A stretch of 64,000 nt of DNA, from contig JAHIRD010000134.1 of NCBI GenBank assembly GCA_018818835.1, positions 1 to 64,000 of the forward strand, in the 5' to 3' direction. This DNA is from Pseudomonadota bacterium (GTDB lineage Bacteria; Desulfobacterota; Desulfobacteria; Desulfobacterales; Desulfolunaceae). The position numbers and the translations under genes are program-made. Below, piece after piece: positions 36,084-46,227 of this stretch (position 1 is the stretch's first letter; each line of letters opens with the position of its first letter). The notes below the pieces were generated by a model. It was not told the origin of the DNA and ran no database searches. It saw only the letters and a program-made list of their open reading frames with translations.

Positions 36084-38009
36084 ATGGATGAAAAAAAACA
36101 GTCGGAAAAAGACTTGTTTGACCTTGATGATGAACTTATAGAACTGACCGATACGGTTCAAGACGAAGAAATAATCGATTTAACAATTCCTCCTGATGAT
36201 ACTGATGATATTATTGACCTAACCCAGCCCGTTCAAACAAAAATTATGTCCCATTCAAGCGTCTCCAATGATTTTGATGACGATGATATCATTGATCTTA
36301 TGCAACCGGTCAACATGGCTGAAGGTTCACCGTTGGATCTATCCGGCATGGATGATTCAACTGAAGACAGTGCACCTGTTATGTTTGATGATGATAGTGA
36401 TGAGATCATTGAGCTCGGAGATCCCGTGACCCAGATTCTGGATGATGATGACGGCCCTGTCGTCCCCGTAATGGTTGACGAAGAAGAGAATATTTTAGAT
36501 TTGTCAGAACCCGTGACTCAAATTCTGGATGAAGACAAGGTTCCCGCTGCAATCAAAAAAGATATTCAGGATCCGTATGAATTTTCAACCCAGACTATGG
36601 AGGAAGAGCTCGTGGATCTGATGGGATCACTTGATGATGACGACGAGATCCTTGATCTGACTGATTCGGCTGGCCAGACCCTGGATGATGAATTTCTTGA
36701 TCTGACAATACCGACAGATGATGATGAAATACTTGAACTGACCGATTCGGCTGATCAGACGCTGGACGATGAAATTCTTGATCTGACCATACCGGCAGAT
36801 GACGAAGATGAAATACTTGAACTGACCGATTCGGCTGACCAGACCCTGGACGATGAGATCCTCGATCTGACAACGACAGTGGATGAAGATGCTGAAATAC
36901 TTGAACTGACCGATTCGGCTGATCAGACCCTGGATGACGGGATCCTCGATCTTACCGATACAGCCACAATGACCATAGACGAAGAGATCCTTCTTGACCT
37001 GACATACGCTGATGACGCCGAGGACGTTTCTGATCAGATGGAACCGCCTACACAGATTCTGGATGAATTGACATCTGATTTCCCGGAATTAACTGTTCAA
37101 GATAATGATTTTGCGTCTTTTTCAGAGCAAACGAGTGATAATCTGCAATTCGATTTATCAGAAATTCCGATATCTGATGAAAAACAACCCACCATCATCA
37201 ATGCCGAACCGGTCAAGGGTGATTTTGATTTTGACAGTTTTGCAGAGCAAACATCAGACAACCTCAGGGTACCTCTTTCAGATACACCTAAAACCTCAGA
37301 ATTTTCGTCCTCTGATACGTATGATATGGATGATGAGATTATCGATCTGACTCTTGTGCCAGAAGATCTGGAGGCTTTAAGTGATTATGCCGATGGGGAA
37401 TATTCCGATGTATCCGGATCGTCCTTGGACGATACCGTGGAGATGGATGCAAAAGAGGATGACCTGGATGATTTCCTTGGAATGGATGTTGAAGAAGATA
37501 CTCTTAATGATACTGCGGAAATATCATCTGTTCCCGATTCCGAAGATATGGACTCCTTGGTTTTCGATGATACTGTGGTGGATGAATTCCTGGATTTGTC
37601 AGATATCGTTTCTGATTCAACCGAAGAACAGCTGGATCAAACCCAGGAAGACCTTATGGATATCACCTGGGATGATGGCCATGTTCCAGGGGCTGCCTTG
37701 GAAGAAACCATTGGCTTCTCAGAGCTGGAAGATGAAATTGATAAGGAAATCAGCAGTCACAAGCACGATGACAAAAAAAGTATTACTGAGTCCTTGGGAT
37801 TCGAAATTCCCAGTGAAAATCAAGAAGGAGAAGGAGCTACCCAGACAATCACCGTATCACAGGAACAGCTGGACCAGTCTGTGGAGCGTGTTCTCAGGAA
37901 ACTGTACGGAGAAAAAATTGATGCCATTTTGACCGAAGTCATTGGTAAAACCGTTTCTCAGGATATTGAGCGGCTGAAAGGTCTTCTGGTACAACCTGAA
38001 GATAAATAA
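36084..38009 (+). CDS. Highly acidic, (I/L)DLT-repeat protein with helical C-terminus
   Basis: 641 aa, unrecognised as a whole. Residues 1-560 are overwhelmingly Asp/Glu and punctuated by more than a dozen short motifs of the form E-(I/L)-(I/L)-(D/E)-LT (IIDLT, EILDLT, EILELT), often with QTLDD between. It has almost no Lys/Arg or aromatic content and should be disordered. Residues about 595-641 (EQLDQSVERVLRKLYGEKIDAILTEVIGKTVSQDIERLKGLL) form amphipathic helices resembling the C-terminal oligomerisation helices of PopZ-like proteins and similar deltaproteobacterial tails; this likeness is tentative. No signal peptide. A GGAG site precedes the ATG; a good terminator follows. Possible scaffold or condensate-forming hub; function not known. 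Confidence 0.8.
   Translation: MDEKKQSEKDLFDLDDELIELTDTVQDEEIIDLTIPPDDTDDIIDLTQPVQTKIMSHSSVSNDFDDDDIIDLMQPVNMAEGSPLDLSGMDDSTEDSAPVMFDDDSDEIIELGDPVTQILDDDDGPVVPVMVDEEENILDLSEPVTQILDEDKVPAAIKKDIQDPYEFSTQTMEEELVDLMGSLDDDDEILDLTDSAGQTLDDEFLDLTIPTDDDEILELTDSADQTLDDEILDLTIPADDEDEILELTDSADQTLDDEILDLTTTVDEDAEILELTDSADQTLDDGILDLTDTATMTIDEEILLDLTYADDAEDVSDQMEPPTQILDELTSDFPELTVQDNDFASFSEQTSDNLQFDLSEIPISDEKQPTIINAEPVKGDFDFDSFAEQTSDNLRVPLSDTPKTSEFSSSDTYDMDDEIIDLTLVPEDLEALSDYADGEYSDVSGSSLDDTVEMDAKEDDLDDFLGMDVEEDTLNDTAEISSVPDSEDMDSLVFDDTVVDEFLDLSDIVSDSTEEQLDQTQEDLMDITWDDGHVPGAALEETIGFSELEDEIDKEISSHKHDDKKSITESLGFEIPSENQEGEGATQTITVSQEQLDQSVERVLRKLYGEKIDAILTEVIGKTVSQDIERLKGLLVQPEDK
36654..36960 (+). repeat. 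84-bp internal repeats in the acidic protein gene
   Basis: The unit coding for ELTDSADQTLDDEILDLT begins at about 36654, 36735, 36819 and 36903, spaced 81-84 bp. The last three are nearly identical in DNA, pointing to recent unit duplication. Confidence 0.85.
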
Positions 38010-38056
38010 AATTGTAAAAACCTTAAAAACATACTATAAAATTCATTTTTAATGAT

Positions 38057-38088
38057 AACTGGGAATTAGATCATAGTTCCCAGTTTTT
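38057..38088 (+). terminator. Rho-independent terminator after the acidic protein gene
   Basis: AACTGGGAA and TTCCCAGTT pair around an 11-base loop followed by TTTTT. It separates the acidic protein gene from valS. Confidence 0.85.
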
Positions 38089-38132
38089 ATTATATGAGGT
38101 ATGATTTTTTAAAAAATTCGAGGTCGTTAGTT

Positions 38133-40787
38133 ATGAGTACAGAACAGCTGGATAAGGGGTATGAACCCCATGATGTTGAACAGAGATGTTATGAATACTG
38201 GATGAAGGAAAAATTATTCTGCGCCGAAGAAAAACAAGGGAAAAAAGCCTTTTCCATTGTGATTCCTCCGCCCAATGTCACCGGTGTCCTTCATATGGGT
38301 CATGCATTGAACAACACCTTGCAGGATATTTTATGCCGGTACAGACGTCTGCGTGGAGATAATGTGTTGTGGATGCCCGGAACAGATCATGCCGGAATCG
38401 CAACCCAGAATGTGGTTGAAAAAAAACTGGCCACGGAAGGTGTTTCACGCCATGAAATCGGCCGGGAAAAATTTGTTGAAAGGGTCTGGGCCTGGAAAGA
38501 GGAATCCGGAAATGCCATCATCAATCAGCTGAAGCGGATGGGTGCGTCGTGTGACTGGGACCGGGAACGTTTTACAATGGATGAAGGCCTTTCCAAAGCT
38601 GTTCGTAAGGTGTTTGTGGAGTTATACAAACAGGGCTTGATTTATAGGGGCAATTACATTATCAACTGGTGCCCTCGCTGCAACACGGCCCTGGCCGATC
38701 TTGAAGTGGATTTCGAAGACAAGCAGGGCAAGCTTTACCATATCAAATACCCCTTTGCTGACGGATCAGGCCATTTTGTTGTGGCCACCACCAGGCCCGA
38801 GACCATGTTCGGTGATACCGCCGTGGCCGTTAATCCGGATGATGAACGCTATAATAATATTACGGCCAAAACCGTCAAACTGCCTCTTACCGACAGGGAG
38901 ATTCCGATAATTCGTGATTCCTATGTGGAGATGGGTTTTGGAACCGGAGCCTTGAAAGTGACCCCGGCCCATGATCCCAACGATTTCCATATTGGCCAAC
39001 GACACAATCTTGAAAGCCCCAAGGTAATCAGTGATGAAGGTTTCATGCTTGAAGGGGCCGGACGCTTCCAAGGATTGACCCGGGAAGAATGTCGGAAACA
39101 AGCGGTTGAAGCCCTTGAAAAAGACGGCCTGATGGTCAAAATTGATGACCATGCCCACAGCGTGGGGCATTGCTATCGCTGCAAGACCATCATCGAACCC
39201 AATCTGTCCAAACAGTGGTTTGTGAGCACAAAGCCCCTGGCCGAAAAAGCCATCAAAGCCGTGGAAGAGGGGAGAACCCGGATTATTCCCGAGCACTGGA
39301 CCAAAACCTATTATGAATGGATGAACAATATCCGGGATTGGTGTATTTCCCGCCAGATCTGGTGGGGACACAGGATCCCGGTGTGGACCTGTGATGACTG
39401 TGGTGAGATCATCGTTGAGCTGGACGATCCCACGGTGTGTCCCTCCTGTGCCAAAACAAATCTAAACCAGGACACGGATGTGCTGGACACCTGGTTCAGC
39501 TCAGCCCTATGGCCCTTTTCCACCATGGGATGGCCAGATCAGACAAGCCTCTTAAAGACCTTTTACCCCACATCTACCCTGGTGACGGGATTTGATATAC
39601 TTTTTTTCTGGGTGGCCCGTATGATGATGATGGGTTTGCATTTTATGGATGAAGTGCCTTTCAAGGATGTGTATATCCATGCCCTGGTCCGGGATGAAGA
39701 AGGCCAGAAAATGAGCAAATCCAAAGGAAATGTCATTGATCCCCTGACGGTCATCGACAGTTACGGAACCGATGCTTTTCGATTCACCCTCACCGCCTTT
39801 GCAGCCCAGGGTCGTGATGTGAAGATGTCTCTGGCCAGAGTGGACGGCTACCGCCATTTTATCAACAAGCTCTGGAATGCGGCTCGCTTCTCATTTATGC
39901 ATCTGGATAAGGCCTATCCTGAACTGGACATGGAGCATATGAGCCTTGCGGATCACTGGATCCTGTCCAAATTGAAGAAAGTCACTGATGAGGTGACCCT
40001 GACTCTGGATGAATACCGTTTCAATGAAACCGCCAACGCCCTGTATAAATTTGTCTGGAATGAATTCTGTGACTGGTACCTTGAAGCCTCCAAACCAGCC
40101 CTTTACGGTAAAAATGGCGATGCCTGTATGAACGCATCCAAGGCTGTTCTTTACAGGGTTCTCAAGGATACCCTGATTTTGCTCCATCCGGTGATTCCCT
40201 TTGTCACCGAAGAAATCTGGGGGAAAATACCAGGTGTGACAGGGTCCATCATGACCGCCACCTATCCCGGTGATCGTGAGGGTCTTGTGGTCAATGAGAC
40301 AGCCGAAAAGGATATGGATCTGGTCATGGGCGTCATTTCAGGCGTTAGAAACATCCGGGGCGAGATGAATATTGCTCCATCCATGAACCTTACCGCCCAG
40401 TTCCAGAGTGATGCAGACATGGTTCGAAACACAGCCAAAGAACACAAAGACCTGATCATGATTCTTTCAAGGCTGGATGCATTTGAGATCACCCCTGTGG
40501 GAGAAAAACCCCGATCATCTGCCACAGCCATTGTGGGTGACGGGAGCCTGTTTGTGAAACTTACGGGTGTCATTGATTTTGACAAAGAGACTGCGCGTCT
40601 TGAAAAAGCCATTGCCAAGCTTTCCAAGGAAGTGGAAGGGATTTCACGGAAACTCAATAATGAGGATTTTATGGGCAAGGCCCCTGAAGATGTGGTGGAA
40701 AAGGTCCGGACCCAGCACCAGGAAGCCAGTGAAAAGCTGGATAAATACATGGAAAATATAGAAAAGATCAAACAAGCCCAACACTAA
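38133..40787 (+). CDS. valS: Valyl-tRNA synthetase
   Basis: 884 aa from the ATG at 38133 (CGAGG nine bases upstream; the in-frame start at 38094 lies next to the preceding terminator). Class I signatures HMGH (GVLHMGHALNNT) and KMSKS (QKMSKSKGN), the editing domain (TTRPETMFGDTAVAVNP, ALKVTPAHDPNDF) and the C-terminal coiled-coil arm (DKETARLEKAIAKLSKEVEG). Charges tRNA-Val; normal bacterial length. Confidence 0.98.
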   Translation: MSTEQLDKGYEPHDVEQRCYEYWMKEKLFCAEEKQGKKAFSIVIPPPNVTGVLHMGHALNNTLQDILCRYRRLRGDNVLWMPGTDHAGIATQNVVEKKLATEGVSRHEIGREKFVERVWAWKEESGNAIINQLKRMGASCDWDRERFTMDEGLSKAVRKVFVELYKQGLIYRGNYIINWCPRCNTALADLEVDFEDKQGKLYHIKYPFADGSGHFVVATTRPETMFGDTAVAVNPDDERYNNITAKTVKLPLTDREIPIIRDSYVEMGFGTGALKVTPAHDPNDFHIGQRHNLESPKVISDEGFMLEGAGRFQGLTREECRKQAVEALEKDGLMVKIDDHAHSVGHCYRCKTIIEPNLSKQWFVSTKPLAEKAIKAVEEGRTRIIPEHWTKTYYEWMNNIRDWCISRQIWWGHRIPVWTCDDCGEIIVELDDPTVCPSCAKTNLNQDTDVLDTWFSSALWPFSTMGWPDQTSLLKTFYPTSTLVTGFDILFFWVARMMMMGLHFMDEVPFKDVYIHALVRDEEGQKMSKSKGNVIDPLTVIDSYGTDAFRFTLTAFAAQGRDVKMSLARVDGYRHFINKLWNAARFSFMHLDKAYPELDMEHMSLADHWILSKLKKVTDEVTLTLDEYRFNETANALYKFVWNEFCDWYLEASKPALYGKNGDACMNASKAVLYRVLKDTLILLHPVIPFVTEEIWGKIPGVTGSIMTATYPGDREGLVVNETAEKDMDLVMGVISGVRNIRGEMNIAPSMNLTAQFQSDADMVRNTAKEHKDLIMILSRLDAFEITPVGEKPRSSATAIVGDGSLFVKLTGVIDFDKETARLEKAIAKLSKEVEGISRKLNNEDFMGKAPEDVVEKVRTQHQEASEKLDKYMENIEKIKQAQH

Positions 40788-42377: not shown

Positions 42378-43728
42378 ATGCTTCAATATAACCCCGAGCT
42401 TAAATTAAAAATCGACCAGCTGTGGAATAAATTCTGGAGCGGCGGTATTTCCAATCCACTGACTGCCATTGAACAAATCACCTATCTTCTGTTTATGAAA
42501 CGGCTGGACACACTGGATCTGTACAAGAAACAGTCAGATACTAAATCAACGGGTAAACGATACGTTTCGAAATTTGACGGCTTCTGGATTCCTCCGGAAC
42601 ACAGGGATAAGTTGAAGAAAGACCAAAAGCCATTTAGGGTGGAACGGCACACCCTAAGGTGGAGTGAGTTCAAAGACATGAAGGCCGAAGAGATGCTCCT
42701 GCATGTGCAAAACAAGGTTTTCCCCTTTCTCAAAGACATGAATGGGACGGACTCTAACTTTACCCATCATATGAAAAACGCGGTGTTTATTATCCCCAAA
42801 CCGGCCCTCTTGGTCGAGGCGGTGAAAACCATCGACGAGATTTTTGATATTATGGCAAAAGACTCCAACGAAAAGGGTCATGCCTTTCAGGATATTCAGG
42901 GAGATGTCTATGAAATGCTGCTCTCTGAAATTGCCTCTTCTGGAAAAAACGGTCAGTTCAGAACCCCCCGCCATATCATTAAGCTGATGACCGAACTGGT
43001 TCAGCCTCAATTGGGTCACCGCATTGCCGATCCGGCCTGTGGGACTGGCGGTTTTTTGCTGGGAGCCTATCAGTACATTTTAACCCAGTTGGCCTTCAAT
43101 AAAGGTTCAACCCTTCTGACATCGGATGCTGAAAAAAAAAGGAACTGCTTGTGTGATCGTGCCTCAGGGGGTGTTGTTCAGTTCAGGCGGTGCCTTCAAG
43201 AGTCTGCGGCAGTTGCTGGTGGAACGCTGCGACCTGAAAGCCGTGATCACCATGCCCAGCGGTGTGTTTAAACCCTATGCCGGGGTCAGCACCGCAATCC
43301 TTCTTTTTACCAAAATATGGGGTCCCAAAGACACGGTCAGAACTCCGGCCACGGAACACACCTGGTTTTATGACATGGGGGATGACGGTTATTCTCTGGA
43401 TGACAAACGCAGCAAAAAAGACGGGCATGGCGATCTACAGGACATCATCGAAAAATTCCACGCACGCAATCCAGAAACAGACACGGACCGAACGCAAAAA
43501 TGGTTTGTGGTTTCATGGGAAGCAAGCAAAGATGAAGGTTATGATTTGAGCTTCAGCCGTTATCGTGAAGATGTCTTTGAAGATATGGAATACGAAAGTC
43601 CTTCATTGATTTTGGATAAATTGATCAAGGCCGAAGTGGGCGATGCCAGTGAAGAGGATCTTGCCACGGTGAAGAGCGGAATTGTGCGGGAACTGCTGGC
43701 GTTAAAGGAGATGATCGGCAATGGGTGA
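42378..43728 (+). pseudogene. hsdM: Type I restriction-modification methyltransferase HsdM, core deleted
   Basis: The first frame (42378-43130) gives the HsdM N-domain (LWNKFWSGGISNPLTAIEQITYLLFMKRLD) and SAM motif ADPACGTGGFLLGAYQYIL. It then jumps out of frame; the second frame (from about 43126) resumes at KKKGTACVIVPQGVLFSSGGAFKSLR and runs to the C-terminus. The roughly 100-130 residues between, including the catalytic NPPF motif, are absent. The junction is at nine consecutive A (43132-43140). No hsdS or hsdR remains, so the system should be dead. Confidence 0.9.
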
Positions 43729-44874: not shown

Positions 44875-46227
44875 ATGAAAAAGGATCGAAAAGAAAAATT
44901 AATGAATCTGGGGGCCGAGTGTCTGGCTGACGTCTTGCTGGTATTGGCTGAACGGATTGATGCCGTGGAAGAACGGGTGACGAGTATGCTTGCAGGCCCC
45001 AAAGAAAACATCCAGCGGTTCAAGAAAAAATTGTCCAGCCTGAAGCGGTCCCGGCGGTTTGTCCGCTGGGGAGAATCCGCAGGCTTTGCACGTGACCTGG
45101 AAGGATTGCTTGAAGATATGAAGGATAGTGTCAGCGATCCTCTCACTGGGGCTGCGCTGGTGGTTTTGTTTTATGAAACGGACGAGGGTGTCATCGGCAA
45201 TTGCGATGATTCCAGCGGGAATGTGGGAGATGTATACCGCTTTGATGCAAAGGATCTGTTCGTTGACTATGCCTCACGCTGTGAGGACAAAGGGAAAATC
45301 GCCAAGATGGTTCTCACACTGAATCTCAATGACAATTACGGGGTGCGGGATGCGCTGATGGAGTGTGCGGAGTCATACCTTCCTGAGACGGAAATCCGTG
45401 GTATGATTTCAACGCTTCAAGCCTTGGGTGATGACGAGGCTGATAAGCATAAGAAACATCACTTTCTGATTCTGATTGAACTCTTGGCCCGTCAAATCAA
45501 GGATGCACCCCTTTTTGAGCAAACCCGCATTGCAGCGTGGGGAGATGTTCCAACCGCAGCGAAAGTCGATATTGCCCGTGTTTATCTGGAAAGTGGCGAT
45601 AGTCAGACTGCTTTTTCCTGGCTGGAAAAAATCCCCAAGGAAGAAGCGTATCAGTCGTATGAACGGGATAAGTTGTACCTCGAGATATACGAGCAGTGGG
45701 GCGATACGGGCAAATTAGCCGAAATTCTTTTTGAGAAATTCAAAAGCTATCCCTCTATGAAAAGTCTTGAAGGCCTGTTGGACGTGATTGGCCATGATAA
45801 GAAAGATGAGGTTGTGGCTGAAGAAGTGGTCGATATTTTAGCTGAAAACAAACTCAGGGACTGTGATGCTGAATTCCTCATTGCCATGGGAAAGTTCGAC
45901 GAAGCGGAAACCTATCTGCTTGAGCGAGCCGATCAGTTGAACGGTCATTATTATGAAAGCCTGCTTTCTTTTGTGGCTCCCATGGAATTGGAAGATCGCT
46001 CACTGGTGGCCAGTTTGATATACCGAAGTCTGCTGGATTCCATTTTGGAGCGGGGATACACCAAGGCTTACCCCCATGGGATTCGATATCTTAAAAAACT
46101 GGATGCCTTGGCACCGTCAATTCGTGACTGGCGTCATTTTGATCATCATGAAACCTATGCCGAAGGGCTTACTCAATCCCATGGTAAAAAGCACAGCTTC
46201 TGGTCAAAATACAGAGGCACGAAATAG
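44875..46227 (+). CDS. DUF6880 family protein
   Basis: 450 aa, intact. N-terminal AECLADVLLVLAER, an all-helical repeat-like centre with SWLEKIPKEEAY and GDTGKLAEIL, and a conserved end HGIRYLKKLDALAPSIRDW with HETYAEGL and HGKKHSFWSKY. The family is often encoded near restriction or defence genes, sometimes with SWIM zinc-finger partners; function unknown. It follows the decayed type I R-M locus on the same strand and may be a surviving accessory gene. Confidence 0.7.
   Translation: MKKDRKEKLMNLGAECLADVLLVLAERIDAVEERVTSMLAGPKENIQRFKKKLSSLKRSRRFVRWGESAGFARDLEGLLEDMKDSVSDPLTGAALVVLFYETDEGVIGNCDDSSGNVGDVYRFDAKDLFVDYASRCEDKGKIAKMVLTLNLNDNYGVRDALMECAESYLPETEIRGMISTLQALGDDEADKHKKHHFLILIELLARQIKDAPLFEQTRIAAWGDVPTAAKVDIARVYLESGDSQTAFSWLEKIPKEEAYQSYERDKLYLEIYEQWGDTGKLAEILFEKFKSYPSMKSLEGLLDVIGHDKKDEVVAEEVVDILAENKLRDCDAEFLIAMGKFDEAETYLLERADQLNGHYYESLLSFVAPMELEDRSLVASLIYRSLLDSILERGYTKAYPHGIRYLKKLDALAPSIRDWRHFDHHETYAEGLTQSHGKKHSFWSKYRGTK

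Follow-up and report, generated by a model that had tools for sequence, protein, structure and literature searches.

A valS-linked acidic protein of Desulfobacterota with a repeated linear motif and probable remote homology to PopZ

Introduction

PopZ serves as a model of bacterial condensates and of how the cell pole is organized. One paper states that it occurs only in alphaproteobacteria and reports an acidic linker that is repulsive and a helical end that is attractive (PMC9512792). The linker of the Caulobacter protein has been described as little conserved in sequence. The sole genomic context common to popZ of Agrobacterium and Caulobacter is valS, found a few hundred bases downstream (PMC5686542), and the popZ of Magnetospirillum likewise adjoins the valyl-tRNA synthetase gene (PMC6414705). 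In Caulobacter, PopZ is bound by the zinc ribbon of ZitP, with Trp35 as the PopZ-binding residue (PMC5182065).

A second described system is RomR, whose C-terminal tail is helical, carries a conserved Glu and an invariant Trp and Pro, and is not homologous to characterized domains (PMC3441718). This tail, RomR-C, is required and sufficient for oligomerization and required for polar position (PMC10329633). Both the helical end of PopZ and RomR-C are reported to drive oligomerization or condensation. Here we describe a protein family of Desulfobacterota that shares several features with both systems.

Results

The gene and its acidic region

The protein that led us to the family is encoded in a stretch of 64,000 nucleotides from a Desulfobacterota genome, referred to below as the window. 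The gene and the features of its first part are as follows.

36084..38009, + strand: candidate scaffold gene, a single intact reading frame for an acidic linker-motif protein of 641 residues
35957..35985, + strand: promoter-like site, TTGACA-17-TATTTT with TG ahead of the second hexamer, about 100 bp 5' of the start codon, by consensus match only
36132..37601, + strand: acidic, probably disordered region (residues 17-506) with 12 strict or 15 loose (I/L)(I/L)(D/E)L(T/S) motifs, from pattern positions and a shuffle control

The initial annotation described a 641-residue acidic protein, and the frame is indeed unbroken, with 33% D/E, 3% K/R and a net charge of -0.306 per residue over residues 1-585. 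This segment has no Cys and one Trp, and the charge-hydropathy line places it among disordered sequences; judged by its composition, the region ahead of the tail is probably disordered. Searches of Pfam and NCBIfam with the 641-residue protein returned no family at E 0.1. Promoter-like sites number eight in the scanned region, with 5.5 expected.

The strict form of the motif, [DE][IVLF][IVLM][DE]L[TS], occurs 12 times in the protein and a looser form 15 times, compared with means of 0.077 (maximum 2) and 0.68 (maximum 5) in 5000 residue shuffles. More than a dozen evenly spaced motifs had originally been claimed. Their number holds, whereas even spacing is confined to two runs, with starts at 17-42 and 175-271 and steps of 12-15; the remaining steps range from 26 to 147. 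The second of these runs coincides with a tandem array in the DNA.

36642..36974, + strand: four 84-bp units in tandem (81 bp for the first step), two motifs coded per unit, e.g. DEILELTDSADQTLDDEILDLT, from TRF and unit comparison

The units begin at 36642, 36723, 36807 and 36891, the first step (36642 to 36723) being the one of 81 bp, and neighboring pairs share 70/84, 70/84 and 63/84 identical bases. The 84-bp duplications noted earlier are therefore real, and calling them recent is fair, if not in an extreme sense. Another stretch, DF.SF.EQTSDNL, is present twice in the protein (residues 342-350 and 382-390), and a similar one was seen by eye in the relative L026.

Across the DNA of the same genome, the pattern [DE][IV][ILM][DE][LF]T[DE], which recovers only 4 of the 12 strict motifs of the candidate scaffold gene, gave eight matches (control, 0). 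Four lie in that gene, and the other four are single matches in genes named by eye as encoding a response-regulator sensor protein, a CheW-like protein, a hydrolase and a lytic-transglycosylase-like protein. The genome therefore holds no further array of exactly this form. An array of LDFSDLE type does exist elsewhere, in an 814-residue protein (G000:C289, L244, 1604-4048, - strand) that has a ZitP-type zinc ribbon, a long acidic region with about eight such repeats, and a DUF3426 domain (E 7.5e-9).

Two other comparisons were set aside. Eukaryotic SUMO-interacting motifs have a hydrophobic core in acidic surroundings, and the repeats had been called SIM-like on that account; the resemblance is one of form only and implies no SUMO system. 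The HubP/FimV polar landmarks combine acidic repeats with a small C-terminal domain, and the window protein has no FimV_Cterm match (0 NCBIfam families at E 0.1). A weak FimV_Cterm match (9e-5, under its cut-off) does occur nearby, in the open reading frame at 44875-46227, which is mainly DUF6880 (1.8e-51). Elsewhere in the window, positions 2-1680 hold 5.4 copies of a 312-bp repeat, which may belong to a large repeat protein truncated at the edge of the window, and an HsdM-type methylase occupies two overlapping frames (42378-43271 and 43126-43728) and looks split or frameshifted.

The C-terminal helix and the family

37860..37991, + strand: C-terminal amphipathic helix spanning residues 593-636, the family's conserved domain and by inference a PopZ/RomR-C-like oligomerization helix, from the relatives search, tail profile, hhalign and structure model

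A helical end of about 45 residues had been anticipated, and the structure model, built on an alignment of 66 rows (65 relatives plus the window protein), agrees with it: residues 593-636 are predicted to form one straight helix of 44 residues with pLDDT mostly 95-99, preceded by three ten-residue blocks that average 50, 42 and 56. A helix of some 45 residues is, taken alone, a weak family marker. A PDB profile search with the tail returned eight weak matches (best E 0.063), all to coiled-coil fusions and unrelated proteins.

A search with the whole protein in 58 genomes (own included) found a match in 25, nearly all of them lying in or reaching into the last 50 residues. The initial annotation had proposed looking for homologues that keep the C-terminal helix, and a profile built from these 25 tails matched 254 of the 291 class genomes sampled, with a single match in nearly every one. 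In a sample of 297 genomes from the phylum the same profile matched 13: eleven from the order of the window, counting its own genome, and two from outside that order, both weakly. Of the latter, L067 is a relative adjoining valS; L068 lacks a downstream valS signature and looks like a chance match.

What class members have in common outside the tail is mainly an acidic composition and the motif. After trimming to the first Met and exclusion of the last 50 residues, with some loci cut at their start, at least one loose motif was present in 85 of 95 class members, compared with 11.1 expected from shuffles. Among 101 untrimmed frames, 13 had none (some of these cut at the start), 31 had one, 29 had two, 25 had three to eight, and three had 13, 15 and 16, the last two being the window protein and L026. 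A short recurring stretch of the type DDFVDSLGMELD was also seen by eye between the motif region and the tail in L028, L030, L036, L046 and other class members.

Repeat slippage is one conceivable source of so many motifs. Eight of those in the window protein fall within the tandem 84-bp units, and the linker is very variable in length (54-658 residues precede the tail in trimmed class members, some loci being cut), so the region might be an entropic acidic spacer whose motifs are by-products and bind nothing. Slippage offers no explanation, however, for the 60 of 101 class members that carry just one or two motifs, with 13 carrying none; the excess over shuffles in the 95 trimmed members and the recurrence of the motif outside the class and in two alphaproteobacterial PopZ proteins, described below, also speak against this reading, which we regard as very unlikely.

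Gene order in the class and the phylum

38057..38085, + strand: intrinsic-terminator-like hairpin between the candidate scaffold gene and valS (stretch 38045-38100, -20.4 kcal/mol, z -5.5)
38094..40787, + strand: valS, the conserved neighbor, as the listed open reading frame with a true start perhaps slightly further in (TIGR00422 match 38154-40712)

All 25 genes from the first search for relatives (own included) have the valS signature NVTG 72-225 codons past their stop, in the first part of valS. Among 70 loci taken from named records, NVTG lies 67-206 codons past the stop in 66, two more have NITG (L087, L091), and in the last two the contig edge was reached (L092, L096). Combining the two checks, valS is next in 93 of 95, with two at a contig edge; the two sets overlap in genomes, and their counts are not independent. 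With a terminator-like hairpin between the genes, a single plain operon is no obvious reason for this order, although the scan that found it gave three such sites with 1.7 expected, a count not above chance by itself.

We sought valS in 118 genomes of the phylum and retrieved its upstream side in 90 (30 + 60), none from the order of the window. In 47 of the 90 the upstream gene has a related tail, mostly with an acidic linker by eye; at the other 43 there is a different gene, a contig end (L147, L172) or nothing that could be read. Two of the 47 (L155 and L162) are without NVTG, and the statistics rest on the remaining 45. The loose motif is present in 26 of these 45 untrimmed, typically once and early in the visible frame (e.g., DEPIIDLTEVVEEGPG, EEEEIIELVDVVEEPE), and after first-Met trimming in 23 of 44, where 5.4 were expected. 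Variants missed by the pattern were seen by eye in another four (L203, L222, L227, L229). Of the 15 genes that remain, ten have by eye a receiver domain, or the end of one, plus a W-E/D-V-V/I-P tail, and several others are cut at their start. In L167 the receiver domain is matched by Pfam (Response_reg, 2e-20) and the tail is also present; L148 has the motif and a receiver match under the cut-off (21.5 bits). The recurrence of the motif across class and phylum backs the earlier suggestion that it is a linear docking motif, putative as that function is. In a further gene upstream of valS, L154, the tail module appears by eye several times in tandem, a natural multivalent version.

A gene order kept throughout the class might also be explained if the protein anchored or regulated valyl-tRNA synthetase. 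Against such a partnership stand the hairpin between the genes in the window, the example of popZ, which has the identical neighbor yet a function at the pole, and the 43 phylum valS loci without such an upstream gene, some of them due to contig ends. We consider it highly improbable.

Comparison with PopZ and RomR

In four alphaproteobacterial records the PopZ gene is followed by valS, with one further gene between them in Sphingomonas. The linker of Caulobacter PopZ includes DDEVLELTDPI (PMC11018776; the letters are identical in PDB 6xry), for which the shuffle P of the strict motif is 0.00055, and Sphingomonas PopZ has SPEVLELSDPM (P 0.00135). Among the four alphaproteobacterial loci Sphingomonas alone has a loose motif, which is absent from PopZ of Shinella and of Sinorhizobium K101 and from the incomplete frame of S. 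meliloti Ak57.

The tails can be aligned. Comparing 100 class tails with four alphaproteobacterial PopZ tails, hhalign gave a gap-free alignment of 56 columns with a score of 21.97 and an E-value of 3.5e-4, one that, like the other hhalign E-values here, refers to a single pair of author-chosen alignments. None of 150 column shuffles reached this score (maximum 6.3), the reversed control scored 2.95, and 32 ValS windows from the same loci scored at most 7.5. Omitting one of the PopZ rows left the score at 21.93. The phylum tail set aligned with PopZ at E 3.7e-5, or 1.3e-5 without that row. The hhalign probabilities against PopZ are low (14-59%) despite the small E-values. Class tails also aligned with 12 RomR-C-like tails from the phylum (E 2.9e-5, score 27.9; shuffle maximum 16.7, reversed 8.3) and with the whole phylum tail set (E 5.8e-7).

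Other hallmarks of PopZ are missing. The PopZ family PF10691 (DUF2497) has no match in the window protein, in the 21 genomes of relatives (own included) or in seven Desulfobacterota proteins searched to a limit of E 10 with HMMER filters on; Sphingomonas PopZ matches it at 2.7e-25. The helix-1 pattern of PopZ (EEILASIRRII type) was absent from all 101 class members and all 45 phylum genes, and present in both alphaproteobacterial N-termini on which it was tried. A mid-tail proline occurs in one of 101 class tails versus 32 of 45 phylum tails (0 versus 18 with a narrower pattern). The design had at first been called PopZ-like, a description supported by the valS neighbor, the charge of the acidic linker, the motif in the Caulobacter linker and the alignable tail, and limited by the absence of PF10691 and helix 1.

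The missing family match, the missing helix 1 and a class tail without a proline kink, along with two complete alphaproteobacterial PopZ proteins that lack the motif, would fit a convergent origin, in which an acidic repeat protein with an oligomerizing tail arose apart from PopZ and stands beside valS by chance. Neighbor, motif and tail are three separate features that agree, however, and related genes adjoin valS in 47 of the 90 phylum loci outside the order. Convergence is, in our assessment, unlikely.

Discussion

We think it likely, on the evidence of sequence and comparison, that the gene product is a self-assembling scaffold of PopZ/RomR type, an oligomeric and probably polar hub in which a docking motif has been multiplied. 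As PF10691 does not match and helix 1 is absent, we name the protein a PopZ/RomR-type scaffold and a probable remote homologue of PopZ, and not a member of the PopZ family. The C-terminal helix would mediate oligomerization, which we infer because the tail resembles the PopZ tail and RomR-C, both of which oligomerize. The long negative chain may keep the assembly open and fluid, which is what the PopZ linker is reported to do. The repeated E-I-I-D/E-L-T motif is a putative docking site for a single client protein or a small number of them, and each oligomer could thus offer dozens of sites. The cluster would most likely sit at the cell pole and gather clients there, and motif number may be what grew in this lineage.

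A more tentative proposal, which we hold with some doubt, is that PopZ, RomR and the Desulfobacterota family go back to a single ancient scaffold gene that adjoined valS and predates the split of Alphaproteobacteria and Desulfobacterota. E-I-I-E-L-T-D-V-V would then be an ancient client-docking signal, kept in Caulobacter PopZ and multiplied to about fifteen copies here, and the zinc-ribbon/DUF3426 protein with ZitP layout would be a candidate partner. That protein is a possible partner by analogy: its zinc ribbon, acidic region and DUF3426 follow the layout of ZitP, and the spacing of its ribbon fits. All 27 ribbons that could be read, out of 30 loci, have Phe at the position of Trp35. PF13719 is matched in 39 of 40 genomes, so the co-occurrence of a ZitP-like protein with the scaffold says little.

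If the valS-linked Desulfobacterota family is a true counterpart of PopZ, the design would be far older and PopZ would be tied to RomR. Excerpts of the open-access literature on PopZ, DUF2497, RomR and valS in connection with Desulfobacterota or deltaproteobacteria yielded no claim of a PopZ link. The initial annotation considered the scaffold type undescribed; its design is that of PopZ and RomR, and what we did not find in those excerpts is its presence in Desulfobacterota, the motif in common and the increase in motif number. A true counterpart would also single out the eleven-residue stretch of the Caulobacter linker as worth mutating, and class members, with 0 to 16 motifs, would provide a natural series for the effect of valency on assembly properties.

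Compared with PopZ, the candidate scaffold shares valS downstream, which is a common context of popZ if not a formal criterion, and an acidic disordered linker, judged by charge and hydropathy, whose charge of -0.306 per residue is close to the -0.269 of the Caulobacter PopZ linker. The two linkers differ in proline content (4.4% in the window protein versus 29.5% in Caulobacter PopZ) and in motif number, about 15 versus one each in Caulobacter and Sphingomonas PopZ. PopZ has an N-terminal helix 1 for clients, which the window protein lacks, and a tail with proline, whereas the window tail is modeled straight and without a mid-tail proline. RomR, the polarity response regulator of Myxococcus, is compared here through its published description and the RomR-C-like tails of the phylum. 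Like the window protein, it joins a disordered linker to a short helical tail, and this tail is reported to oligomerize and to help polar position. The window protein has no receiver domain by Pfam and lacks the Trp/Pro signature of RomR-C, with no Trp in residues 586-641. Receiver-type genes of RomR layout with a WEVVPELAE-like tail nonetheless sit upstream of valS within the phylum.
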